In this document: in pieces, positions 1-9,595 of the stretch | How positions within the stretch are numbered: position 1 is the first letter of the stretch | How the letters are laid out: each line of letters begins with the position of its first letter | Made by a program: the position numbers and the translations under genes | The notes under the pieces: model-generated | What the model was told of the DNA's origin: nothing | Databases searched by the model: none | Seen by the model: the letters and a program-made list of their open reading frames with translations, nothing else | Assembly (NCBI GenBank): GCA_018064575.1 | Contig: JAGHUZ010000219.1 | Coordinates: 1 to 9,595 of the forward strand | Direction: 5' to 3' | Length of the DNA stretch: 9,595 bases | DNA from: Candidatus Minthomonas equi | GTDB taxonomy: Bacteria; Bacteroidota; Bacteroidia; Bacteroidales; UBA932

Positions 1-986
1 CTGTCGTATATTTCAACGAGAAGATGACCGACGGTTACGGTTTCGTCACTGAATTTCTCCCTATGGTTTACAATCGATACGCTTACGAATGGAAAGACGG
101 AAGCCATAACTCTGTAATAAGACTGGATGAATACTACAAGTCCGGTATGCAGTTCGGATATGGCCCCGGAAAGCTTACCACGGCTGACGGAAGCGTCGTA
201 CCTTCCATTTCCGACACTACATTCATGTCCTGCAAACGCCCCGTAAACGGAATCGAGAACGACAAATGGGGTGTGGAATTCACTCTGGACTTCGCCAGGA
301 TAAAACCCATCAACACCACCATCAGCGTCAGCGGAGCCTATATGAATATGTCCACCCGACATAGCAAATACGACTGGCAGCTCTATTCCGGCAGTGCAGG
401 AGGACGTTCCTATCCATATGTCGGCATCTATGGAGGCAGTACCACCGCTTCCACCGGATCGGTCAAGGACAGGCTTTCAGCGAACATACGCTTCGTAACC
501 CACATTCCATCCATAGGAATGGCCATCACCTTGACGGCACAGATGGTATTTATGGACAGAACGCGGAACCAGTCCGAGTTCGGAGGGGAAGTATTGCCAT
601 ACTTCTATGATGAAGCAGGCAGAAGAATAAGCGGAAACGCAGCACTCAATGACACTGAGCACACGAAATATGTAAATCCCGTTATGATTATGGAACGCTC
701 CGGACGCCTTATACCATTCACTCAGGAGATGGAGAATGACCCGAAATACCGCGACCTGATTATAACGACCAACACCTCCACTTATTATATTTCCCAGAAT
801 TACCCGTTCTACGGAATGCTCAACCTCCGCCTGACGAAGGAAATCAAAAAAATAGCCACCATATCTTTCTACGCAAACAACTTCCTTAACCTCAGGGGAA
901 GGGTCTATAATTCCGTTACACATTACCCGATAGACCGCAATACCCCCATTTACTTCGGTGCGGAAGTCAAGATAACAATACGATGA
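1..986 (+). CDS. TonB-dependent receptor, C-terminal beta-barrel part (5' truncated by window edge)
   Basis: This is the distal part of an outer-membrane TonB-dependent receptor, which imports a ligand into the periplasm using energy from TonB-ExbBD. The frame is open from base 3, before the first ATG at 24, so that ATG is internal; 327 residues and the stop are visible. The plug domain, TonB box and any N-terminal carboxypeptidase-like domain lie upstream, outside the window. What remains alternates amphipathic beta-strands and polar loops. It ends with the late-barrel pattern FYANNFLNLRGRV, then YFGAEVKITIR, typical of the last strands of Bacteroidota receptors. The last residue is Arg, not the usual aromatic. 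The stop overlaps the next gene's start (ATGA), and that gene is DUF4876-like, so this is probably the receptor of a DUF4876-linked system rather than a classical SusC with SusD. The receptor call is firm from barrel features and context; the ligand is unknown. Confidence 0.85.
   Translation, partial: VVYFNEKMTDGYGFVTEFLPMVYNRYAYEWKDGSHNSVIRLDEYYKSGMQFGYGPGKLTTADGSVVPSISDTTFMSCKRPVNGIENDKWGVEFTLDFARIKPINTTISVSGAYMNMSTRHSKYDWQLYSGSAGGRSYPYVGIYGGSTTASTGSVKDRLSANIRFVTHIPSIGMAITLTAQMVFMDRTRNQSEFGGEVLPYFYDEAGRRISGNAALNDTEHTKYVNPVMIMERSGRLIPFTQEMENDPKYRDLIITTNTSTYYISQNYPFYGMLNLRLTKEIKKIATISFYANNFLNLRGRVYNSVTHYPIDRNTPIYFGAEVKITIR
983..986 (+). promoter_or_regulatory. ATGA stop/start overlap (translational coupling)
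   Basis: The receptor stop TGA (984-986) shares bases with the ATG (983-985) of the DUF4876-like gene. I see no strong Shine-Dalgarno motif just upstream. The arrangement implies one mRNA and probably coupled translation of receptor and lipoprotein. The overlap is seen directly; coupling is inferred. Confidence 0.6.
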
Positions 987-2218
987 TTTCGAATATCAAA
1001 CCCGGACTCCTGATATGCGCGGTCATAATCTGCGCCAGCTTTTTCTCCTGCGTCAAGCAGGCGGAGGATTTGAAATCTGTCGCCACTGTGAACGTATCGC
1101 TTGTGATACCGGAAGGGAGCGGAGCCGCACTTGACCTGACAGAAATCGAAATAAAACTTTCGAACAAAACGGCTCCGTTCTCCTATATCGAATCTCCCGA
1201 TTCCGAGGGAAAAGTTTCCTTCAATGTTCAGCCGGGTAAATACGACATACTGATTTCCGGCGAATACCCGAAGAAAAAAATTTCCGTCAACGCTTCCGTC
1301 AGCGAGTTCCTGCTGACAGAGAAAGGGATAGTCACTGATGACGGCTCCATCGTATCAGCCGACATCGACATTGTCCTTAACGTAATAAAGACCGGAAGCC
1401 CTCTTATCATTAAGGAACTGTATTATCACGGTTGCAGTACATTCGAAGGAGCAAATTACACAAAAGACAGGTATCTCACCCTCTATAACAATTCCGGAGA
1501 AGGCGGAGAGGACGTTTATCTGGACTCACTCTGCATAGCCACCATATTTCCGCACAACTCCACCAGCGGCAGCAACCCCTGGAAAGGTCGGGACACCATA
1601 CCCATCGCCCAGATGTTCTGGATGATTCCCGGTAACGGGCACTCTTACTGCCTGCATCCCGGAGAAGAGACCACCATAGCGATGATAGCCGCCGTGGACC
1701 ACTCCCCCCGTGCGACATCCGCCCTTCAGCTCAATAGGGTACAGTTCGGTTGCTACTCGGAGACTCTTCCCGGTCACGAAATAGCTGCCGGAGTAACACC
1801 GCTCGTCTGCTATATGTGTGGTCAGGGAACTGCCTGGGCCGCATCCATACACTCCCCCGCCATAGTTATTTTCAAGACTCCGATGGCTGTCGATGATTAT
1901 TATGCCGATATCAGTACCTGGAAAACATACGAGCCGGGCAAAAGCTCAGGCACAGAGTATTATCACATTCCCAAGGACTGGATTCTGGACGGAGTGGAAT
2001 GTGCGGACAAGCCTGAAGGAGCCATAAAGCGTCTGCCTTCCACAATAGACGCATCCTACGTTTATATCCGAGCCGCACACTATTCCGGAACCTGTGTAAC
2101 CAGAAAACTGGATGATTCGGCATCCGAATGGTCCGCTATAAAAGTCTATAAGGATACCAATAATTCAGACACCGATTTCGACCACGATGCGCCTCTTAAC
2201 CCCGTTTATTGCAGATAA
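983..2218 (+). CDS. DUF4876-like lipoprotein, putative receptor partner
   Basis: This 411-residue protein of unknown function most resembles the DUF4876 family of Bacteroidota lipoproteins. The N-terminus has a hydrophobic stretch (residues 7-22) ending in the lipobox FFSC, with Cys23 as the lipidation site. The following residues, VKQAEDL, include an acidic run resembling the export signals of surface lipoproteins in this phylum, so surface exposure is plausible. Residues about 33-135 look like an immunoglobulin-like or carboxypeptidase-regulatory-like domain (GKVSFNVQPGKYDI, 76-89). The DUF4876-like part follows (about 136-410): KELYYHG at 144, a KDRYLTLYNN strand at 161-170 reminiscent of lamin-tail domains, then FWMIPGNG, LHPGEET and AAVDH (212-240), and WILDGVEC at 333. 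The start at 983 is supported by the signal peptide. Tight linkage to the receptor and a second barrel suggests a ligand-binding or receptor-lid role, which is inference. Confidence 0.72.
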   Translation: MISNIKPGLLICAVIICASFFSCVKQAEDLKSVATVNVSLVIPEGSGAALDLTEIEIKLSNKTAPFSYIESPDSEGKVSFNVQPGKYDILISGEYPKKKISVNASVSEFLLTEKGIVTDDGSIVSADIDIVLNVIKTGSPLIIKELYYHGCSTFEGANYTKDRYLTLYNNSGEGGEDVYLDSLCIATIFPHNSTSGSNPWKGRDTIPIAQMFWMIPGNGHSYCLHPGEETTIAMIAAVDHSPRATSALQLNRVQFGCYSETLPGHEIAAGVTPLVCYMCGQGTAWAASIHSPAIVIFKTPMAVDDYYADISTWKTYEPGKSSGTEYYHIPKDWILDGVECADKPEGAIKRLPSTIDASYVYIRAAHYSGTCVTRKLDDSASEWSAIKVYKDTNNSDTDFDHDAPLNPVYCR

Positions 2219-2222
2219 AATT

Positions 2223-3824
2223 ATGAAAAGGCTCACATTTACATTCATATTAATCTGTATGGCGGCCACAGCCGTGCAAGCGCAGCAGGAAAAAGCCCTG
2301 TTCACCCTGGACAGGATGGAATGGATAAATCCCTGGCTCAGAACATCCAACGCCGCAGGACTGAGCGGAAACGCCGCATTCCTTTCGGATACTGTAAAGG
2401 GATTCAATGACGCTTCCGCAGCAGGAAGCATTGCCGCAGGCGGATACAAGAACATCTATGATGCCGAAAGACAGGTAACAGGAATACTCGGTATCGATTC
2501 ATATATGAAACTAAAGCGTGTATTTCTCCACGGAAAAGTGGGATACCGTTATGAATATGGCACCAACCATCGCTGGAGGGGGCTTGTAAATCCATACGAA
2601 ATGCCGTTTATGGTGGCAGACAGCATCCCCGGCAATATGTCCAACGAAATTTACAGTCTGGAAGCAGGAATCGGCATTCCGCTTAAAAACGGATGGGCCA
2701 TAGGCGTGAATACCACTTACAATGCCTCCATTATGGCCAAACACAAGGATTTGAGGAACAAGAATACCTATATGGAATTCGATATCACTCCCGGAGTATC
2801 ATATACGGGAAAACTTTTCCAGATAGGTTTTAATCTCGGCTTCCTGCGTAACACGGAGAAAATCGAGTATATGCAGGTGGATGCATCCACTGAAAAATAC
2901 CTCTTCGACCTCTATGGTATGTGGCTTTACAGTTCCAATGGGTTCTCCAGCGCCGAAGAAAAACGCTATAAACTGCGGAATGAATACTACGGAGCCCTCC
3001 AACTGGGATTCAGTTTCAGTAACATCCGTATTTTCAATAACTTCGAGGCTCGCTACACCGATGCGACGCAGACAGAGACGGGTTATAACAACCTCCATCA
3101 CGGAGATATCAGTAAATTCCTGCTCACCGATTCGTTCTCACTGCTGATAGGACGGCAGCACAGGATAGACATCAGTGCATCAGGATACAGGATGAACGGA
3201 TTCCGCTTCCTCCAGCGGCAGGAACTCGACCCTGATTCGAAAGTCAGAATCTGGGTTACCTATGGTGACCCCGTATTCTGCTATGACAGATGTGTCACCG
3301 ACGGGATGCTCTCCTACACTTTCAGAAAACTCGGAAACACCCCCGACACAGATGGAAAATTGTCTCCATTCGATATAAACTGGGAAATCAGCGCTGCGGT
3401 GAAGGGATATACGATGCGTCAGAACTATTACGAACACCCCGTTCAGTTCAGTCAGAAATACAGTCTGTTAGAACCGATGGCGACATTCTCCAAATACTGG
3501 AAAAAAGGGAGCCATCTATTCGACCTGACTCCTTCCCTTTCCTATACCATACCGACAGAAAGCGGCCACAAGGACGACGTCACTGCAGCAGGAGCCAAGC
3601 AAGGTGAATCCCCGTGGCAGTTGGAAGAACCTCTTGCCAAAGAATACTCGTTCTTCACATCGGAAAGGGTCAATGCATCGCTGTCCCTCCGTTATGCACA
3701 TATACTGAAAAAAGCATCCACGATATACATTAAAGGGACTTATCTCCTGCACAGCGTCACCAAGGGCGACTTGCAGGGAGAAGCCCGTCATTCAGGAACA
3801 TTAACCATAGGTTACACATTTTAA
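2223..3824 (+). CDS. Outer-membrane beta-barrel protein, DUF6850-like
   Basis: This 533-residue protein is predicted to be an integral outer-membrane barrel. The start at 2223 is preferred over the in-frame ATG at 2187. It gives a clean type I signal peptide (KR, then a hydrophobic core, cleavage after AVQA at residue 20), and the earlier ATG lies inside the DUF4876-like gene and would spoil it. The mature protein opens with a segment containing NPWLRTSNAAGL, a pattern I associate from memory with DUF6850 barrels. It then alternates aromatic-rich strands and turns throughout and ends in GYTF, the C-terminal phenylalanine signature recognised by the BAM assembly machinery. There is no plug domain or TonB box, so it is not a second TonB-dependent receptor. 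It sits 4 bases after the lipoprotein gene and 5 before the polyferredoxin gene. The barrel call is strong, the family name moderate, and the function unknown. Confidence 0.72.
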   Translation: MKRLTFTFILICMAATAVQAQQEKALFTLDRMEWINPWLRTSNAAGLSGNAAFLSDTVKGFNDASAAGSIAAGGYKNIYDAERQVTGILGIDSYMKLKRVFLHGKVGYRYEYGTNHRWRGLVNPYEMPFMVADSIPGNMSNEIYSLEAGIGIPLKNGWAIGVNTTYNASIMAKHKDLRNKNTYMEFDITPGVSYTGKLFQIGFNLGFLRNTEKIEYMQVDASTEKYLFDLYGMWLYSSNGFSSAEEKRYKLRNEYYGALQLGFSFSNIRIFNNFEARYTDATQTETGYNNLHHGDISKFLLTDSFSLLIGRQHRIDISASGYRMNGFRFLQRQELDPDSKVRIWVTYGDPVFCYDRCVTDGMLSYTFRKLGNTPDTDGKLSPFDINWEISAAVKGYTMRQNYYEHPVQFSQKYSLLEPMATFSKYWKKGSHLFDLTPSLSYTIPTESGHKDDVTAAGAKQGESPWQLEEPLAKEYSFFTSERVNASLSLRYAHILKKASTIYIKGTYLLHSVTKGDLQGEARHSGTLTIGYTF

Positions 3825-3829
3825 CGATT

Positions 3830-5821
3830 ATGAACAGAAATAAACCTTCAAACTGGCTGCGCTATACATTCCAGTTCGGCATTCTGGCAGTTATCATCCT
3901 TTTCCTCACCAAAGCCTTCGGCAACGAAACCGCAGACCCCGAGGCATATTGTCCCTTCGGTGGACTTGAAACATTGGCCACATACTTCGTGCAAGGTTCT
4001 CTTGCGTGCAGTATGACGATGGTCCAGATAATGATGGGCGTCCTGCTGGCTGTAGGAGCGATACTTTTCGGCAAACTTTTCTGCAGTTACATCTGTCCTG
4101 TGGGTCTGCTCAACGAAATGATGATGAGACTCCGCCGCACATTCCGCATCAAGTTCATTTCTATCAGAAACGGCAGCGTGGCAGACGCTCTTCTCCGTCT
4201 GATCAAATACGGCCTCCTGTTCCTGATATTTTATATAACTTTATCATCTAGTGAGCTTTTCTGCAAGAACTTCGACCCCTATTACGCTTTCGCTACCGGT
4301 TTCAAGGGTGAACTTACCGTATGGATGGCCTGCATATCCATCGGAATACTTTTCCTCGGAGGTCTGCTCGTGGATATGTTCTGGTGCAGATACATCTGTC
4401 CACTGGGAGCCATAAGCCATATTTTCAAATTCACGCTGGAAATCGTTATTCTGCTTCTGGCCTATGTGATTCTGCTCCACTTCGGAATCAACATTCCCTG
4501 GGTGGCCGTTCTCGCCATAGCCTGCGGAGGTGCTTATCTGCTCGAGATTTTCGTCAAACATCCCAAACTTAATCCGCAGCTCATCAGCATTTATCGCGAT
4601 GCCACAGAATGTAATCTGTGCGGGCTTTGCGAAAAAAACTGCCCCTATCATATTCCTCTCAAGAATTTCAACGGAAAAGTCACCTGCGTCGACTGTTCGT
4701 TATGCGGAGAATGCGTAAGTTCCTGTAATAAAGGCGCTCTCAGTGTAACGCGCCGCAAATGGGGAAGATGGATACCGGGATTCATCGCGGCAGCCCTGTT
4801 CTTCATCGCATTGTGGATAGGTTCGACCACCGAACTGCCCACTATCGACGTCAGATGGAACAAAACCGTAGATGAGGCCGGTGTGGAGACCGTTATCGTT
4901 CCCGACGAGGCACTCGCCGAGTTCGATATGACAGGAATGCGTTCGGTAAAATGCTACGGTTCATCGATGGCATTCAAGGCAAAACTCCAGCGTATTCAGG
5001 GTGTATATGGAGTCAAGACATTCGTCAAACACGGACGTGTAACCATCTACTATGACCCTTCTACCGTGACTCCCGAGACCATTCAGGAAGCCGTATATAC
5101 ACCCACCAAGTTCCGTATTTCCGACCCGGAAGCCGGAACCCAAAAGGTGAAAGTGATTACCATACGTACGGAGAATATGTATGACAAACTTGACCCCAAT
5201 TATCTTGGGATGCAGTTCAGGAATACAGGCAAAGCATATTACGGTCTGGAAACCGAATATGCGTGCCCGCTGATAGTCCGCTTGTATATGGGTGTGGATG
5301 AGCCCATCGACGAAGATTTCCTGAAAGAGATGTGCTCCCTCAAGGAAGTGGAGATGCCGCAGCACGGCGGAGGAGTCAAAATCATTCCTGTAAATTACAA
5401 GTATGTAAAACTGGAGGAGAAAATCGACACCATCGCACTGAGGCCATATCTTGAAAAAATGTTCTCACCGTTCAAAGCTGAATTCAAATCCCGCGTGGAA
5501 AAATATGCCGGCCGTCCCCAGCAGACGATGTCATATTCCAATATGAATTACCAGAAACCGCTCACTCTCAGAAATCTTCCGTTCCTGAGCAATTATCTGT
5601 CCCAGCAAGAGGGCATCATAGGGATTTATCTCCTTCTCGACGAGGATAATATGCCTACGATAAGAATCAGATTCTGCACAGATGACATCTCGGCCGAAAA
5701 GATTATGGAACTGGTCAACCAGCCCAAGTGGCCCATCAAATATAAGGAAGGTGATATCCGTGAAGAAAATCAGCGTTTCAAATTTACGGACACAGGTAAA
5801 GTAGTGGCATACATAGAATAA
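3830..5821 (+). CDS. Inner-membrane polyferredoxin (NapH/CcoG-like) with C-terminal HMA-like extension
   Basis: This 663-residue inner-membrane electron-transfer protein has about six hydrophobic segments before residue 245 and another at about 314-331. AYCPFGGLET (39-48) and two CxxxCP motifs (CSYICP 85-90, CRYICP 186-191) are hallmarks of the NapH/NosR/CcoG membrane ferredoxin group. Two 4Fe-4S motifs follow: C261-C264-C267-C271-P and C289-C292-C295-C299, with an extra C286; the second has Asn where Pro usually follows. After the last membrane segment comes an extension of about 330 residues that those families do not usually have. At 362-425 it resembles an HMA metal-binding domain but reads GMRSVKC, keeping only the second Cys. 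A second ferredoxin-fold-like stretch lies at about 583-630. The CcoG relative RdxA/CcoG reduces copper during cbb3 oxidase assembly. Position behind a receptor operon suggests redox handling of an imported metal or cofactor, which is inference. The substrate and electron donor are not visible. Confidence 0.82.
   Translation: MNRNKPSNWLRYTFQFGILAVIILFLTKAFGNETADPEAYCPFGGLETLATYFVQGSLACSMTMVQIMMGVLLAVGAILFGKLFCSYICPVGLLNEMMMRLRRTFRIKFISIRNGSVADALLRLIKYGLLFLIFYITLSSSELFCKNFDPYYAFATGFKGELTVWMACISIGILFLGGLLVDMFWCRYICPLGAISHIFKFTLEIVILLLAYVILLHFGINIPWVAVLAIACGGAYLLEIFVKHPKLNPQLISIYRDATECNLCGLCEKNCPYHIPLKNFNGKVTCVDCSLCGECVSSCNKGALSVTRRKWGRWIPGFIAAALFFIALWIGSTTELPTIDVRWNKTVDEAGVETVIVPDEALAEFDMTGMRSVKCYGSSMAFKAKLQRIQGVYGVKTFVKHGRVTIYYDPSTVTPETIQEAVYTPTKFRISDPEAGTQKVKVITIRTENMYDKLDPNYLGMQFRNTGKAYYGLETEYACPLIVRLYMGVDEPIDEDFLKEMCSLKEVEMPQHGGGVKIIPVNYKYVKLEEKIDTIALRPYLEKMFSPFKAEFKSRVEKYAGRPQQTMSYSNMNYQKPLTLRNLPFLSNYLSQQEGIIGIYLLLDEDNMPTIRIRFCTDDISAEKIMELVNQPKWPIKYKEGDIREENQRFKFTDTGKVVAYIE
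4913..5104 (+). other. Degenerate HMA-like domain within the polyferredoxin
   Basis: Residues about 362-425 follow the HMA plan: GM(x)n C, a helix (KAKLQRI), GVYGVKTFV, a strand (GRVTIYYDP), then TPETIQEAV. The canonical GMxCxxC becomes GMRSVKC, with Ser372 in place of the first Cys and Cys375 kept. The fold match is good by eye. Metal binding is uncertain, since a lone Cys could still ligate with another residue or partner. Confidence 0.6.
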
Positions 5822-5835
5822 GAAGCTGTATAGGA

Positions 5836-7977
5836 ATGAAAAAAATTCTCGTAACACTTTTGTTATCCACCCTGATGCAGGGTTTCACATCACTCCGGGG
5901 CGACGATGGAATGTATCTTGTCAACCTGATGGAAAAGGGGCTCATCAAGGATATGAGGGCAGCAGGACTGAAATTGCCCCCTAATGTCATCTATGATGAA
6001 TCGCAGGCATCTATCAGCGATGCCATAATAGCACTTGATTTCTTCTGCTCGGGCAGCATCATATCGGACAAGGGCCTGCTGATAACCAATCATCACTGCG
6101 CCTACGGAGACGTCCACGCTCTAAGCACCCCGGAGCACAATTACCTCGAAGAGGGATTCTGGGCATTCAAGAGGTCAGAAGAGAAGCCCATCCCGGGAAG
6201 AAGTGCATTCTTTCTGAGAAAGGTCATAGATGTTACTCAGGAAGTGGACAGCCTCTCCAGAGAGACTGGAGCGGACAAGAAGAAAATGGGTTCCCGCAAG
6301 CTGGCCTGGGTTATGGAGACCAAATACCAAAAAGAATATGGAATGGAAGCTTCACTTGGCAGTATGTGGAAGAATTCAAAATATTATATGTTCCTCTATG
6401 ACCGCTTCAGCGATGTAAGACTTGTAGCTGCCCCGCCGGTATCGATTGCCGCCTTCGGCGGTGACATCGACAATTGGGAATGGCCTCAGCACAAAGGCGA
6501 CTTCGCTATATACCGCGTCTATTCTGCACCCGACGGTTCCCCTGCCGAATACTCTCCGGATAATGTCCCTATGGTTCCGAAACGCCACCTTGCCATTTCC
6601 ACCAAAGGAGTGAAAATGGGGGACTACACTATGATACTGGGTTACCCCGGACGTACCAACCGCTATTCATCTTCATTCGAAGCTGACTTCGTCTCAAGAA
6701 TCCAATACCCTATGACCACCCCTGCGATGAAAGGGAAAATGGACATTATCAGTGACTGGAGCGAGAAGAACGATACCATAAGACTCAAATATGCCGACCA
6801 ATACTTCAGCATCTCCAATGTTCAGGAGAATTATGAAGGAGCCGCCTCCGCCATCACGAGATATGGGATAGTGTCGAAAAAGCAAGCCATCGAGAAAGAA
6901 CTTCAGGAATGGCTGGACAAACGGAACGACCCGAGGAAAGAGATTATCACCGAAATCGGGAAGGTATATCAGGCCCGGATTGATGCTGAGAAGGAGTTGA
7001 TAAAATTCAGAAACGGGATAGTAGGCAGTTGCGCTTATTTTTCGATGACCAACAGAATCAAAAGTTCGATGAGAAAATCGGATTCCACTCTTCTTTCAGC
7101 TGACACCCTTTTTATGAAGTGGTCCGATGATTTGTTCTCTTCTACCGATTCCCGTGTGGAACACGATCTCTTCGTATATGCCTTGACTGAATATGCCGCT
7201 TCTTCCTCCCGGGAATTCAGAGGAAACGCATTTAATAAAATGCTGGACAAATTCAACGGAGATGGACGGGCTATGGCGGAATGGGTATGGAATAATTCAT
7301 TTATAACCGACCGCACAAGATTCACTGAATTCATTTCAGACTACAGGTCTCTGAAAGATGTCAACGCAGATTCTTTCGTCCGCGTACTGAGTTCCATTTC
7401 CATAAAGGACATCAATGATAAAATCGACAAAACCTGCAGTTTCTGTCCTTCATCCCTCACTGAACTCAAACGCCGGTACACACAGGCGCTCTATGAGATG
7501 AGATGCGAAAAGGGTATCACACAGTATCCCGATGCGAATTCCACTATGAGGCTGACCTATGGGAACGTATGCGATCTCCATCCACGTGACGGAATACGTT
7601 ATGCGGAACTGAGCACCGCATCCGGAATTCTGGAAAAATATGACCCTTCAGTCTATGATTTTCACCTGAATGACAGACAGCATGCTCTTCTGGAGAAGAA
7701 AGACTGGGGACGCTGGGGTAATCCGGACGGGACTATGACTGTCAATTTTCTTTCCACGAATGACATTACAGGGGGAAATTCCGGAAGCGCGGTACTCAAT
7801 GGCCGTGGAGAACTCATCGGACTTGCCTTCGATGGCAACAAAGAATCATTGTGCAGCGATTTCTGGTTCGAACCAAGATATTGCAAATGTGTCAATGTCG
7901 ATATCCGCTATGTGCTCTGGATACTCGATAAATACGCAGGGATGAATTATCTGTTCGATGAACTGGAATTAATATGA
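5836..7977 (+). CDS. dpp7: S46 family dipeptidyl peptidase, DPP7-type
   Basis: This 713-residue S46 serine peptidase is secreted to the periplasm, where it removes dipeptides from peptide N-termini. Length matches the family (about 700-720). A signal peptide (MKKI, then a hydrophobic stretch to about residue 18) is followed by DDGMYL, like the mature start of known members. The triad is visible: His87 in TNHHCAY, Asp222 in GDFAIYRVY (strand pattern DxAxxR), and Ser649 in GGNSGSAV. Trp214, Asn332 (ENYEG) and Asp666 fit the residues that bind the substrate N-terminus. Eighteen residues after the Ser, Gly667 (AFDGN) is the specificity position: Gly is DPP7-like and favours hydrophobic P1 residues, while DPP11 has Arg there and prefers Asp/Glu. 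Spacings from the Ser agree with published numbering recalled for DPP7 and DAP BII. It starts 14 bases after the polyferredoxin stop and overlaps the next gene. The symbol is by similarity. Confidence 0.93.
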   Translation: MKKILVTLLLSTLMQGFTSLRGDDGMYLVNLMEKGLIKDMRAAGLKLPPNVIYDESQASISDAIIALDFFCSGSIISDKGLLITNHHCAYGDVHALSTPEHNYLEEGFWAFKRSEEKPIPGRSAFFLRKVIDVTQEVDSLSRETGADKKKMGSRKLAWVMETKYQKEYGMEASLGSMWKNSKYYMFLYDRFSDVRLVAAPPVSIAAFGGDIDNWEWPQHKGDFAIYRVYSAPDGSPAEYSPDNVPMVPKRHLAISTKGVKMGDYTMILGYPGRTNRYSSSFEADFVSRIQYPMTTPAMKGKMDIISDWSEKNDTIRLKYADQYFSISNVQENYEGAASAITRYGIVSKKQAIEKELQEWLDKRNDPRKEIITEIGKVYQARIDAEKELIKFRNGIVGSCAYFSMTNRIKSSMRKSDSTLLSADTLFMKWSDDLFSSTDSRVEHDLFVYALTEYAASSSREFRGNAFNKMLDKFNGDGRAMAEWVWNNSFITDRTRFTEFISDYRSLKDVNADSFVRVLSSISIKDINDKIDKTCSFCPSSLTELKRRYTQALYEMRCEKGITQYPDANSTMRLTYGNVCDLHPRDGIRYAELSTASGILEKYDPSVYDFHLNDRQHALLEKKDWGRWGNPDGTMTVNFLSTNDITGGNSGSAVLNGRGELIGLAFDGNKESLCSDFWFEPRYCKCVNVDIRYVLWILDKYAGMNYLFDELELI
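7974..7977 (+). promoter_or_regulatory. ATGA stop/start overlap (translational coupling)
   Basis: The peptidase stop TGA (7975-7977) overlaps the ATG (7974-7976) of the glucanotransferase gene. The overlap is seen directly. It implies a shared transcript and probably coupled translation of two functionally unrelated enzymes. Confidence 0.6.
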
Positions 7978-8288
7978 AAGTAAAACTTAGCATCGAATAT
8001 TTCACCCGATGGGGAGAAAGTCTCTCCCTCATTTCCAATGACCGTAAATTTCCTATGACCTGGGAAGGAAACGGCATCTGGAGCATTACCTTCCCCCACT
8101 GTACCGCCTCCATTCTCTCGGATTACACTTACGTCGTAATGAAGGATGGATGCATTCTGAGGACGGAATGGAAACATCATCATTCAAAACTTTCCGGAGA
8201 AATTCACGATGTCTGGTTCGACTGTCCGTTCCCGGGATGCCCGTTTCCACGTGAGCATTCCGCAGCCATTTTCGACCGTCCCGGATTC
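7974..8288 (+). other. Single N-terminal CBM20-like starch-binding domain
   Basis: Residues 1-105 of the glucanotransferase carry the CBM20-like features: an opening strand, a WGESL segment, FPMTWEGNGIW, and a YTYVV strand near the end followed by an EW element. The loop that usually carries the LGxW pattern looks shortened, so one starch-binding tryptophan may be missing. The call is by eye and limited to this domain. Confidence 0.55.
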
Positions 8289-9595
8289 AGAGGGGCAGGC
8301 ACTGCCGTTCCGGTATTTTCATTGCGGAGCGCCGATGACTTCGGAATCGGTGATTTCAATGACTTGAAGATTCTGGTTGACTGGGCCTGCGCCACAGGGC
8401 AATGCATCATACAACTCCTTCCCATCAACGACACCACCCGAAATGGAGGATGGGAGGATTCATATCCTTACAGCCCCGTCAGCAGTTTCGCCCTTCATCC
8501 CCTCTATCTCAGACTCCAGAATCTCGGAATCAGGGAAACTGCGGCCTTCAAAAAGGAACAGAAAGCATTGAACTCCCTCGAACAAATCGATTATCCGAAG
8601 GTATTCAGAGCCAAGATGGCTTACATCAGAAAAGCATTCGAATCCCGCGCGGAAAAGGATATGGCCACTTCCGCATTCAAGAAGTTCGTGAAAACCAATT
8701 CCTTCTGGCTGGACGAATACTGCAGTTTCTGCGCCGGAAGAGATTCCCTCGAGACCGAATACTACTCGTGGATGCAGTATCATCTCGACAAGCAGCTTTC
8801 CGAAGTGGTGGAATATGCACGCAAACGCAATGTATTTTTCAAAGGGGACCTTCCCATCGGAGTCAGCGCACAAAGTGCGGAAGCACACTTTCACCCGGAA
8901 CTTTTCAACCTTGATTCCTGCGCCGGAGCTCCTCCGGATTACTTCAGCCGTGACGGGCAGAACTGGGGTTTCCCCACATATAACTGGGAAGCTATGGCGA
9001 AAAATGATTTCGCCTGGTGGAAAGCACGCCTGAGAAAAATGTCCGAGTATTTCGCAGCATTCAGAATCGACCACATTCTGGGCTTTTTCAGAATCTGGGA
9101 GATTCCGATTGAATTCACCAGCGGTATCGAAGGTCATTTCAATCCTGCACTTCCCTATACTCTGGACGAAATACTCGGAAAGGGGCTTCACGTAGAAGGA
9201 TTGTTCCACGAAGATTCGAGGCACCCGGGAATGTATCAACCCTACATCACCCCTGCTTCCGGAAATCTTCCGATGTGGCAGCAACAGGTTTTCGGTGATA
9301 TGTATAATGACTTTTTCTTCCACCGCCACGATGAATTCTGGAGAAAGAACGCTATGAAAAAACTTCCGGAACTGCTATCCTCCACAGGAATGCTCGCTTG
9401 CGGGGAAGATTTGGGAATGGTTCCAGACTGCGTTCCGACGGTTATGGAACACGAGAAGATACTTTCTCTAAAAATGAAGGGTATGGAGCAGGAAGGTGAC
9501 TGGAAATACCTGAGTGTCTGCGCCACTTCAAGTCACGATATGGATACCTTGAGAATGCAGTCACACGAAGACCCCGAACCGGAGGAATGCAGCAG
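7974..9595 (+). CDS. malQ: 4-alpha-glucanotransferase (GH77, DPE2-like, with N-terminal CBM20), 3' truncated
   Basis: This is a disproportionating enzyme that transfers alpha-1,4-glucan segments between maltodextrins. It is cytoplasmic (no signal peptide). The frame stays open for 540 codons to the window edge; the C-terminus is missing. Residues 1-105 resemble one CBM20 starch-binding domain (VKLSIEYFTRWGE to YTYVVMKDG, then RTEW). GH77 motifs follow: FGIGDFNDL (123-131), YPYSPVSSFALHP, GDLPIGVSAQSAE, AGAPPDYF with GQNWGFP, the nucleophile Asp366 in FRIDH, the acid/base Glu478 in GEDLG, and Asp522 in SHDMDT. All catalytic carboxylates are present. A long insert separates Asp366 from Glu478, as in DPE2 enzymes and unlike short bacterial amylomaltases. 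Most Bacteroides relatives have two CBM20 domains before the catalytic part; here only about 120 residues precede it, so one is absent. After SHDMDTLR the expected GWWEE-like motif reads MQSHEDP, a divergence. The start at 7974 is set by the beginning of the CBM20 strand. Confidence 0.93.
   Translation, partial: MKVKLSIEYFTRWGESLSLISNDRKFPMTWEGNGIWSITFPHCTASILSDYTYVVMKDGCILRTEWKHHHSKLSGEIHDVWFDCPFPGCPFPREHSAAIFDRPGFRGAGTAVPVFSLRSADDFGIGDFNDLKILVDWACATGQCIIQLLPINDTTRNGGWEDSYPYSPVSSFALHPLYLRLQNLGIRETAAFKKEQKALNSLEQIDYPKVFRAKMAYIRKAFESRAEKDMATSAFKKFVKTNSFWLDEYCSFCAGRDSLETEYYSWMQYHLDKQLSEVVEYARKRNVFFKGDLPIGVSAQSAEAHFHPELFNLDSCAGAPPDYFSRDGQNWGFPTYNWEAMAKNDFAWWKARLRKMSEYFAAFRIDHILGFFRIWEIPIEFTSGIEGHFNPALPYTLDEILGKGLHVEGLFHEDSRHPGMYQPYITPASGNLPMWQQQVFGDMYNDFFFHRHDEFWRKNAMKKLPELLSSTGMLACGEDLGMVPDCVPTVMEHEKILSLKMKGMEQEGDWKYLSVCATSSHDMDTLRMQSHEDPEPEECS

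Follow-up and report, generated by a model that had tools for sequence, protein, structure and literature searches.

What does a gene cluster that joins an outer-membrane receptor to an inner-membrane electron carrier bring into the cell? The locus that raises this question lies in a 9,595-nucleotide stretch of a Candidatus Minthomonas equi contig, analysed here as a whole and referred to as the window. A preliminary description had recognised four adjoining frames on the + strand, running from a receptor fragment through a DUF4876 and a DUF6850 protein to a polyferredoxin, with junctions of -4, +4 and +5 bases, and the frame positions bore this out. The description stopped one gene early: a gene encoding an S46 dipeptidyl-peptidase starts 14 bases past the end of the polyferredoxin gene and, near the window, is conserved along with the others. 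The features are as follows.

3..986, + strand: TonB-dependent receptor, C-terminal 327 aa, 5' end lost at the contig start (homology to full-length receptors)
983..2218, + strand: DUF4876 lipoprotein, 411 aa (PF16215, E 1.5e-30), predicted to be located at the cell surface
1049..1051, + strand: lipobox cysteine codon (C23), invariant across 39 aligned DUF4876 proteins
2223..3824, + strand: DUF6850 protein with a signal-peptide-like start (PF21012, E 1.7e-62), a supposed outer-membrane barrel
3830..5821, + strand: polyferredoxin, 663 aa (Fer4_5 profile, alignments, model)
4082..4099, + strand: first CxxxCP motif (C85-P90), invariant in 32 aligned proteins, both cysteines in 87/87
4385..4402, + strand: second CxxxCP motif (C186-P191), invariant in 32 aligned proteins, both cysteines in 87/87
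4610..4726, + strand: eight cysteines (C261-C299) of two predicted [4Fe-4S] clusters, all in 87/87 aligned polyferredoxins
4916..5119, + strand: first ferredoxin-like (HMA-like) domain, residues 363-430, with the invariant C375 in C-x-G-S-S, not CxxC
5144..5389, + strand: second ferredoxin-like domain, residues 439-520, with C479 (strand/helix order; weak HMA-like match)
5519..5770, + strand: third ferredoxin-like domain, residues 564-647 (strand/helix order in the model)
5836..7977, + strand: S46 dipeptidyl-peptidase with catalytic motifs kept (PF10459, E 7.3e-190)

No oxidase or nitrate reductase gene was found in the window, and a Pfam profile search of its six proteins detected neither DUF4374 nor PepSY domains.

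A constant core with exchangeable cassettes

The receptor fragment gave no TonB match in Pfam and was identified through profile matches to full-length receptors at the same position in related loci. In the closest relative, locus L008, the receptor is 966 aa long and has CarboxypepD_reg-like, Plug and TonB barrel domains. It matched no solved structure at E 0.001 in a single-sequence search, and therefore the cargo cannot be read off from it. The DUF4876 protein scored 107.1 bits against PF16215 (curated cut-off 27.9 bits) and matches a solved member, BT_1938 of B. thetaiotaomicron (PDB 4q1z). The DUF6850 protein scored 212.6 bits against PF21012 (cut-off 27 bits), covering the profile almost entirely; the first ATG of its frame is at 2187, and the signal-peptide-like stretch starts from the ATG at 2223.

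Receptor, DUF4876 and DUF6850 form a constant core in 61 of 70 loci. The cassettes around it are exchangeable and comprise HEAT repeats, an ABC/DUF4857/PepSY set, or peptidases, which may or may not come with the polyferredoxin. We listed 22 loci of the DUF4857 type (L087 and L161 carry ABC/A222 labels, yet were left out). Four of them, of the polyferredoxin/BNR sort, have neither the PepSY-like protein nor its partner lipoprotein, whereas one or both, whole or in part, are present in 13 of the 18 others. In this small sample, the distribution suggests a reductase slot that the polyferredoxin may fill.

Linkage of the polyferredoxin to the core

Among 59 genomes of the window's family, DUF4876 was present in all 14 with the polyferredoxin and in 23 of the 45 others (Fisher 9e-4). 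The two genes were located within 10 kb of each other in 10 of the 14, against 0.17 expected by chance (distances were taken from tables by eye, and genome sizes for the chance figure were rounded). The core is thus linked to the polyferredoxin far above chance, and neighbourhood conservation no better than chance, which the preliminary description had named as grounds for giving up its proposal, is not what we found. Order-wide, 5 of 12 polyferredoxins were within 10 kb of DUF4876.

We then compared 76 polyferredoxin loci, namely the best 80 of 157 relatives minus L025, L068, L070 and L072, which had no polyferredoxin frame in ORF calling. All five families were present within the stretch in 39 of these loci. 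The exact gene order of the window was found in four, and 11 more departed from it only by an extra M16 gene ahead of the polyferredoxin. Gaps between genes were short throughout the cluster. In L097 the DUF4876 frame was lost by ORF choice, yet it was recovered in the DUF4876 search. The other ground named for giving up the proposal, a polyferredoxin that belongs elsewhere without the receptor, applies in part: 23 of the 76 loci had no receptor within the stretch examined, some stretches being short; L024, L036 and L146, with C69-polyferredoxin-S46, are examples. In Bacteroidales bacterium CF (L038/L144), polyferredoxin, S46 and M16 lie together, and a DUF4876 core is located some 17 kb away.

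Viewed from the core, the polyferredoxin is a module that may be absent or exchanged. No polyferredoxin was found within the stretch examined in 61 of the 73 loci that comprise the DUF4876 searches and the window; this count includes L106, though the gene sits just outside it (L112), and L168 and L169 are duplicates of L123 and L128, respectively. S46 or a long M16 (cut 850 aa, with the S46 fusion of L101 excluded) accompanied 9 of the 12 loci with the polyferredoxin versus 10 of the 61 without (Fisher 1.3e-4; the loci are related and not independent). Mapped onto the polyferredoxin tree, the presence of S46 nearby requires at least 4 changes of state, and that of DUF4876 nearby at least 15. 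A class-wide search for the polyferredoxin gave at least 1 of 395, a lower bound because at most three candidates per genome were scored.

Peptidases of the cluster

The S46 protein of the window scored 633.5 bits against PF10459 (cut-off 22 bits), and both of its catalytic motifs aligned to DPP11 (5jwg). Among the S46 proteins of related loci, NHHC was kept in 78 of 80 and GGN[AS]GS in 79 of 80. The position occupied by Arg in the Asp/Glu-specific DPP11 template was Gly in 79 of the 80, with one misfit to the pattern. The window protein stays below the cut-off of the DPP7 equivalog model NF053519 (512.2 vs 1200 bits). S46 dipeptidyl-peptidases are general peptide-digesting enzymes, and we found them in 110 of 119 Bacteroidales genomes.

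In the 76 polyferredoxin loci from the best 80 of 157 relatives, S46 was directly downstream of the polyferredoxin in 61, M16 was present in 29 including short proteins (28 at ≥850 aa), and any of S46, M16 or C69 in 72. Near the window, a peptidase, S46 foremost, is thus the most regular companion of the polyferredoxin. The M16 protein of L004 is PqqL/FusC-like (PqqL 6ofs, E 7.8e-56), and HxxEH was found in 31 of 32 M16 proteins longer than 850 aa. The window has no M16 gene. One full-length M16 was found in its genome, and its alignment with the M16 of the cluster type covers just 301 aa, at 23% identity; none of the five cluster families was found on its 6.4-kb contig in this incomplete genome.

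In L116, L122, L124, L125 and L131 the core has S46 but not the polyferredoxin, and a genome of the same genus keeps receptor-DUF4876-DUF6850-S46 and gave no polyferredoxin match. Outside the window's family, DUF4876 is followed in L101 by a Met-zincin/S46 fusion. In the order-wide sample of 12 polyferredoxins, S46 adjoined only two, both from the window's family, and no S46, M16 or C69 was found in the ten other stretches. The link between peptidase and polyferredoxin is, in this sample, local to the window's family.

The polyferredoxin

The polyferredoxin is predicted to have six membrane helices, a cytoplasmic 2x[4Fe-4S] motif, a seventh helix and a periplasmic C-terminal half. Fer4_5 matched it in two stretches (Pfam, E 7.8e-12). 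Its described kinship to the copper reductase CcoG holds for the motifs, as it carries a [4Fe-4S] ferredoxin motif and, twice, the CxxxCP motif, with invariant cysteines. It does not extend to family membership, as the score against the NCBI model for CcoG (TIGR02745) was 14.7 vs a cut-off of 316.7 bits; that against NapH (TIGR02163) was 55.4 vs 213.05 bits.

A fused metal-chaperone-like domain had also been proposed. The model shows the HMA order of strands and helices in this domain, and residues 369-422 match copper-ATPase HMA domains, with copper- and zinc-ATPase domains closest by sequence. However, the HMA match (PF00403, E 8.7e-4) was below the curated cut-off (20.1 vs 24.8 bits), and a single cysteine (CxGSS) is found with no CxxC. 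The cysteines predicted to be periplasmic, C41, C60, C145 and C375, were present in 86 or 87 of 87 aligned polyferredoxins. Position 479 was Cys in 82 of 87; the remaining five proteins, with Glu or Asp there, all come from order-sample loci without DUF4876. C479 looks like a clade marker; the pattern is no proof of function, because many C479 proteins also have no DUF4876 nearby. The polyferredoxin would, by our interpretation, reduce metal.

Iron regulation of related loci

On iron depletion, receptor/DUF4876 loci of P. gingivalis are reported to increase 20.8-214.5x and BT3625-33 of B. thetaiotaomicron 36.7-128x (PMC10434189). Judged by the product names given, the B. thetaiotaomicron loci induced by iron depletion belong to the HEAT and ABC/DUF4857 types. 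With hemin, a P. gingivalis DUF4876 gene is reported to change with the same sign as HmuY (PMC10470040). PG_1019/PG_1020 are listed as shifting along with hmuY in a mutant transcriptome (PMC10101095), which we leave aside as evidence. PGN_1308/1309, considered as P. gingivalis DUF4876 genes, were dropped, as published passages describe them as a repressor or repressor target and as feoB.

We scanned upstream of 65 receptors for Fur boxes and found matches with at most four mismatches to TGATAATNATTATCA in 30 of 65, versus 19.2 for shuffled sequences, the sequences being related. The window contig starts at base 1, which placed the window's own upstream region outside the scan. The top enriched upstream word is one that we take to be the Bacteroidetes -7 promoter box. 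FeoB_C was not found in the window's genome, which is 74% complete.

Proposed function and alternatives

We propose, with a probability of about 0.45, that the five-gene cluster imports a metal, probably iron, that is bound to a protein or peptide, with periplasmic proteolysis and reduction fed by the polyferredoxin. We infer the cargo and the identity of the metal; that the cargo is a protein or peptide is what the peptidase cassette points to. The DUF4876 lipoprotein, at the cell surface by the receptor, would catch the cargo, and the TonB-driven receptor would move it across the outer membrane, DUF6850 being left without an assigned role. Digestion of the carrier would fall to S46, which many relatives combine with an M16 endopeptidase resembling PqqL/FusC or with a C69 peptidase. 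The polyferredoxin would draw cytoplasmic electrons via its [4Fe-4S] clusters and CxxxCP motifs to the periplasmic cysteines and the single-cysteine ferredoxin-like domains; these domains would bind the released metal and be the site of its reduction, and an inner-membrane importer encoded outside the cluster would then take it up.

The proposal retains from the preliminary description the import of a metal, metallophore or cofactor followed by inner-membrane reduction, in favor of which are the linkage of core and polyferredoxin and the iron-induced DUF4876 loci elsewhere (PMC10434189). The peptidase had not been foreseen there, nor that the polyferredoxin is optional. Points against the proposal are that the peptidase link is local and that CcoG is reported to reduce Cu(II) and not Fe(III) (PMC7558416). 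To these come the single cysteine and missing CxxC of the HMA-like domain, the window's lack of an M16 gene, the FeoB_C that was not found in the 74% complete genome, the genome of the same genus that has the core and S46 but gave no polyferredoxin match, and the 23 polyferredoxin loci in which no receptor was found. A bolder version, which we consider doubtful, is that of metalloprotein piracy in Bacteroidales, a modular Fus plus a reductase: the core would engulf an iron protein, endo- and dipeptidyl-peptidases would digest it, and cytoplasmic electrons, led by the polyferredoxin to its three tandem ferredoxin-like domains and their lone invariant cysteine, would strip the metal during its release.

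The main rival is that the cluster takes up oligopeptides or proteins as carbon and nitrogen, with M16, S46 and C69 completing the digestion and the polyferredoxin in a side role. The general activity and wide occurrence of S46, the clustering of several peptidase classes here and the Gly in place of the Arg of DPP11 speak for it. We hold it unlikely, if a serious contender, since plain peptide uptake would not need an electron carrier in the inner membrane whose invariant cysteines are predicted to be periplasmic, sister DUF4876 loci contain PepSY-like genes, and the DUF4876/receptor loci reported for other species respond to iron depletion with strong induction (PMC10434189). The same invariant cysteines, and the peptidases that accompany the polyferredoxin near the window, could instead mean that its electrons reduce disulfides of imported proteins for the peptidases and that no metal is reduced. 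This is improbable, as C41, C60, C145 and C375 include no CxxC pair and the first C-terminal domain is HMA-like by sequence, that is, of the metal-chaperone type.

The polyferredoxin and S46 might also be a separate pair, serving envelope protein turnover or redox balance and merely lying beside a receptor operon. The fewer changes of the S46-nearby state on the tree and the three receptor-less loci would fit such a pair. The reading is nevertheless hard to credit, given the short gaps, the presence of DUF4876 in every polyferredoxin genome of the family sample, the five loci in which S46 joins the core minus the polyferredoxin, and the pairing of the polyferredoxin with DUF4876, not S46, beyond the window's family. 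We give the least credence to copper acquisition, in which a CcoG-like cupric reductase with copper-chaperone-like domains would serve a copper-carrying peptide. CcoG, also a CxxxCP polyferredoxin, reduces Cu(II) (PMC7558416), and the HMA-like domain is nearest to copper- and zinc-ATPase domains; against this, CxxC copper ligands are absent and other DUF4876 systems are reported to be regulated by iron and hemin.

Comparison with known systems

If the proposed import of a protein- or peptide-bound metal is correct, the cluster suggests a Bacteroidota counterpart to the protease-associated import known from Proteobacteria, and in the polyferredoxin this form of uptake would have a novel type of inner-membrane partner. 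Our literature search found no publication naming the cargo of DUF4876 receptor loci, and full-text searches found no mention of DUF6850 and no earlier link of S46/M16 with TonB-dependent iron acquisition in "Bacteroid-" gene neighborhoods. In Fus, ferredoxin is imported and then cleaved (PMC6793856). The cluster resembles Fus and Ydd-PqqL of Pectobacterium and E. coli in that many of the window's relatives have a TonB receptor next to a periplasmic-type M16 protease similar to PqqL/FusC, and in its tie to iron, by experiment for Fus and by regulation in other species for DUF4876 loci. It differs in that the window has S46 and no M16, and the L008 receptor matched no solved structure in the single-sequence search at E 0.001. 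The main text of the Fus survey concerns Proteobacteria and contains no "S46", "4Fe-4S" or "lipoprotein" (PMC6793856).

Like CcoG/FixG and NapH, the polyferredoxin is a membrane protein that combines a 2x[4Fe-4S] motif with a pair of CxxxCP motifs. It is far below the cut-offs of both the CcoG and NapH models, and its C-terminal half is predicted to be ferredoxin-like, whereas CcoG is reported to have an Ig-like domain (PMC7558416).

The Bacteroides xenosiderophore system XusABC consists of a receptor, a lipoprotein and a PepSY reductase, and one locus is described with an esterase (PMC13142918). The cluster shares with it a receptor, a surface lipoprotein and an inner-membrane reductase (here predicted), the addition of a hydrolase in one Xus locus and, from DUF4876 loci of other species, induction by iron depletion. 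The parts themselves differ: DUF4876 versus DUF4374, polyferredoxin versus PepSY protein and peptidase versus esterase.

BT3625-33, BT1933-39 and P. gingivalis PG1019-22 are likewise reported as iron-depletion-induced loci with DUF4876 and a TonB receptor (PMC10434189). By product names their cassettes are ABC/DUF4857/PepSY/fimbrillin or HEAT, and no polyferredoxin or S46 is among the products named, some genes being given just as "hypothetical". The survey yields a single outer-membrane core that stays constant while its processing cassettes are exchanged, and for DUF4876 receptor loci, so strongly iron-induced in P. gingivalis and B. thetaiotaomicron, this cluster hints at the type of cargo.

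Gene content of the window

The window opens its contig, and the source genome bin is 1.36 Mb and 74% complete. The following genes were found:

3-986, + strand: TonB receptor, final 327 aa, with the 5' part cut by the contig start
983-2218, + strand: DUF4876 lipoprotein
2223-3824, + strand: DUF6850 protein
3830-5821, + strand: polyferredoxin, 663 aa
5836-7977, + strand: S46 peptidase
7974-9593, + strand: GH77 enzyme (4-alpha-glucanotransferase gene), cut

The preliminary description had proposed a four-gene uptake system ending at the polyferredoxin, with junctions of -4, +4 and +5, and the ORFs bore these junctions out. The gap from the polyferredoxin to the S46 gene, beyond the range of that description, is +14. 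The first 4 bases of the GH77 gene are shared with the end of the S46 gene, and the frames of the 80 related loci yielded no GH77 relative.

A single core with exchangeable cassettes

Using loci from DUF4876 searches plus the window, we found that, of the 70 loci bearing DUF4876, 61 had the receptor, DUF4876 and DUF6850 genes side by side. For the 70 DUF6850 frames of this set, the same-strand gene after DUF6850 encoded a HEAT-repeat protein (14), an ABC ATPase (12, often preceding a membrane protein and DUF4857), S46 (6), M16 (4), polyferredoxin (4) or another labelled protein (9), was unlabelled (9), or was lacking (12). Median gaps across all loci were 12 bases for receptor-DUF4876 (n=107), 6 for DUF4876-DUF6850 (n=109), 12 for polyferredoxin-S46 (n=71) and 28 for M16-polyferredoxin (n=14). 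Because the core is contiguous, the downstream genes vary and the gaps are short, we conclude that this is a single outer-membrane core with swappable cassettes, of which the window carries the peptidase/polyferredoxin cassette. S46 or a long M16 was present in 9 of 12 loci with the polyferredoxin versus 10 of 61 without it (Fisher 1.3e-4, a guide only, since the 73 loci are kin).

The HEAT cassette (loci L121, L143, L151, L153-L157, L159, L162, L166 and L167) surrounds receptor-DUF4876-DUF6850 with HEAT-repeat proteins, from one to three or more in number and mostly about 700-750 aa long. A third cassette consists of the ABC ATPase, the membrane protein and DUF4857, often joined by two further proteins: a small one resembling PepSY_TM and a lipoprotein-like one of about 190 aa. 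The latter bears HIC[KR]HGG in loci L086 (5986-7182) and L091 (12949-14152), and the L086 protein had no Pfam match. Among the 22 DUF4857-type loci listed, four were of a BNR type that goes with the polyferredoxin, which lay within the stretch in two, just outside it in one and by inference in one. PepSY and the partner lipoprotein were each found in 0 of these 4, and one or both in 13 of the other 18. In the distant loci L097, L098, L099 and L112, a BNR/sortilin-like protein of about 790 aa lies between the polyferredoxin and the rest; the L098 protein has a type IX secretion tail, and the L099 arrangement is inferred across a contig end.

Linkage of the polyferredoxin to DUF4876 and to peptidases

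A 32-polyferredoxin alignment (A1) run against named genomes yielded 157 confirmed relatives, of which the best 80 were retained with flanks of up to 10 kb per side. Their taxa were Bacteroidales, Rikenellaceae, Bacteroidia or Bacteroidetes bacteria, or Candidatus genera. Among the 76 of these best 80 loci in which ORF calling recovered the polyferredoxin, S46 was present in 70 and directly downstream of the polyferredoxin in 61. The receptor was found in 53, DUF6850 in 50, DUF4876 in 47, C69 in 30 and M16 in 29, with at least one of S46, M16 and C69 in 72. The complete set of the window's five families occurred in 39, its exact gene order in 4 (L008, the closest relative, L060, L065 and L078), and this order with an M16 gene inserted before the polyferredoxin in 11 more. 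In L008, a 1433-aa RuvC_III and HNH (Cas9-like) protein (12167-16465) lies directly downstream of S46.

Since these 76 loci were picked by polyferredoxin likeness, genomes were also sampled independently of that choice. The order-wide sample of 119 genomes contained 27 DUF4876 matches in 22 genomes, 12 polyferredoxin matches in 11 genomes, and S46 in 110 genomes. DUF4876 lay within 10 kb of 5 of the 12 polyferredoxins. In a sixth case, genome G072, the polyferredoxin stops 202 bases short of the contig end, and the gene at the start of the DUF4876 contig is the one found next after the polyferredoxin in genome G089; the link would thus run across the contig end. S46 adjoined the polyferredoxin only in two genomes (G000 and G008), both from the window's family, and S46, M16 and C69 were absent from the ten remaining polyferredoxin stretches. 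The DUF4876 link is thus broader in reach than the peptidase link.

Among 59 genomes of the window's family, DUF4876 was found in 37 and the polyferredoxin in 14. All 14 polyferredoxin-bearing genomes had DUF4876, versus 23 of the 45 others (Fisher 9e-4). The neighbourhood proposed in the preliminary description exceeded chance: the two genes lay less than 10 kb apart in 10 of the 14, against 0.17 expected. Of the remaining four genomes, two had the genes 17 kb apart, with a HEAT-type core, one had them about 37 kb apart and one on separate contigs. Mapped on the polyferredoxin tree, proximity to DUF4876 switched at least 15 times and proximity to S46 at least 4 times; with so few S46 switches among non-independent kin loci, the S46 link represents fewer events than 61/76 implies.

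The polyferredoxin is an optional partner

In G506, a 96% complete genome of the window's genus, fimbrillin-like genes, receptor, DUF4876, DUF6850 and S46 are consecutive (L116), and a polyferredoxin match was absent. Peptidases also accompany the core in other loci lacking the polyferredoxin: L124 and L131 read M16-receptor-DUF4876-DUF6850-S46, and L127 holds a C1 peptidase and M16. In G530, a second genome of the genus, the polyferredoxin (L147) and DUF4876 (L117) are on separate contigs. Because the core occurs with a peptidase but no polyferredoxin, and the G530 polyferredoxin lies on another contig, the polyferredoxin is an optional partner of the core. Inside the window's family, the association with peptidases is the more constant one; most DUF4876 cores from beyond the family carry other cassettes.

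The G530 polyferredoxin adjoins a 960-aa CarboxypepD_reg protein, with a GH92 gene nearby. Elsewhere in the order, in a family other than the window's, a single 1226-aa Met-zincin (DUF4953)-S46 fusion directly follows DUF4876 (L101:1736-5413, G111:C10). Two adjacent PmbA/TldD-type metallopeptidase genes (L133:8766-12168) are divergent from a receptor-DUF4876-DUF6850-polyferredoxin locus.

Peptidases and polyferredoxin

The window's S46 protein can be aligned with DPP11 structures over almost its whole length and keeps the His and Ser motifs. At the position of the Arg of the Asp/Glu-specific enzyme, it has Gly. Of 80 S46 proteins encoded in the loci, 78 retain the His motif, 79 the Ser motif and 79 the Gly. 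The M16 protein of locus L004 best matched the solved M16 peptidase 9ldy and PqqL (E 7.8e-56), then 6b03, 6brs and 6b05, which we take to be FusC. HxxEH was found in 31 of 32 M16 proteins longer than 850 aa.

In 87 aligned polyferredoxins, the cluster cysteines, those of both CxxxCP motifs, C60, C145 and C375 were invariant, and C41 was present in 86, with one gap. Position 479 held Cys in 82; the other five, all from order-sample loci lacking DUF4876, had Glu or Asp there. Hydropathy and an AlphaFold model (mean pLDDT 79, pTM 0.57) suggest a cytoplasmic cluster domain preceded by six membrane helices and followed by one; with this topology, C41, C60, C145, C375 and C479 would face the periplasm. 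The modelled C-terminal half has the strand-helix order of three putative ferredoxin-like domains (about 363-430, 439-520 and 564-647). By sequence, the first of these resembles HMA, with a Pfam score below the cut-off; residues 369-422 align with copper-ATPase domains, and the CxxC metal ligand is replaced by a single invariant cysteine in C-x-G-S-S (87 proteins). NCBI's models did not assign the protein to CcoG or NapH.

A candidate metal-uptake system

Iron depletion raised P. gingivalis PG1019-22 (DUF4876, receptor and hypotheticals) 20.8-214.5x, and B. theta BT3625-33 and BT1933-39 by 36.7-128x and 3.5-7.4x (PMC10434189). The BT1933-39 product names include a HEAT protein, and its member BT_1938 is the solved DUF4876 structure 4q1z. 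Hemin-responsive P. gingivalis genes include a DUF4876 gene with the same sign of change as HmuY (PMC10470040).

Because the core is iron-regulated elsewhere, the peptidase occupies the slot of an esterase in one Xus locus and the polyferredoxin that of a PepSY-like protein in other DUF4876 loci, our best reading by analogy is candidate uptake of protein- or peptide-bound metal. The receptor core would import the bound metal, the peptidase would release it by proteolysis, and the polyferredoxin would reduce it. A limit on the reduction step is that CcoG, the biochemically studied polyferredoxin used for comparison, reduces Cu(II), not Fe(III) (PMC7558416). FeoB_C was looked for in the 74% complete genome and not found. 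The main rival, uptake of nutrient peptides, would account equally for the peptidases, though neither for the response of other DUF4876 loci to iron nor for the electron carrier, and we consider it less likely.

Metal uptake with proteolytic release and reduction has partial parallels. Fus of Pectobacterium imports ferredoxin, which is processed by proteolysis, and M16 proteases are common in related Proteobacteria clusters (PMC6793856). Xus of B. theta pairs its receptor with a surface lipoprotein and with a PepSY protein to which iron-siderophore reduction is attributed; an esterase accompanies these in one Xus locus (PMC13142918), whereas the window has a peptidase instead.
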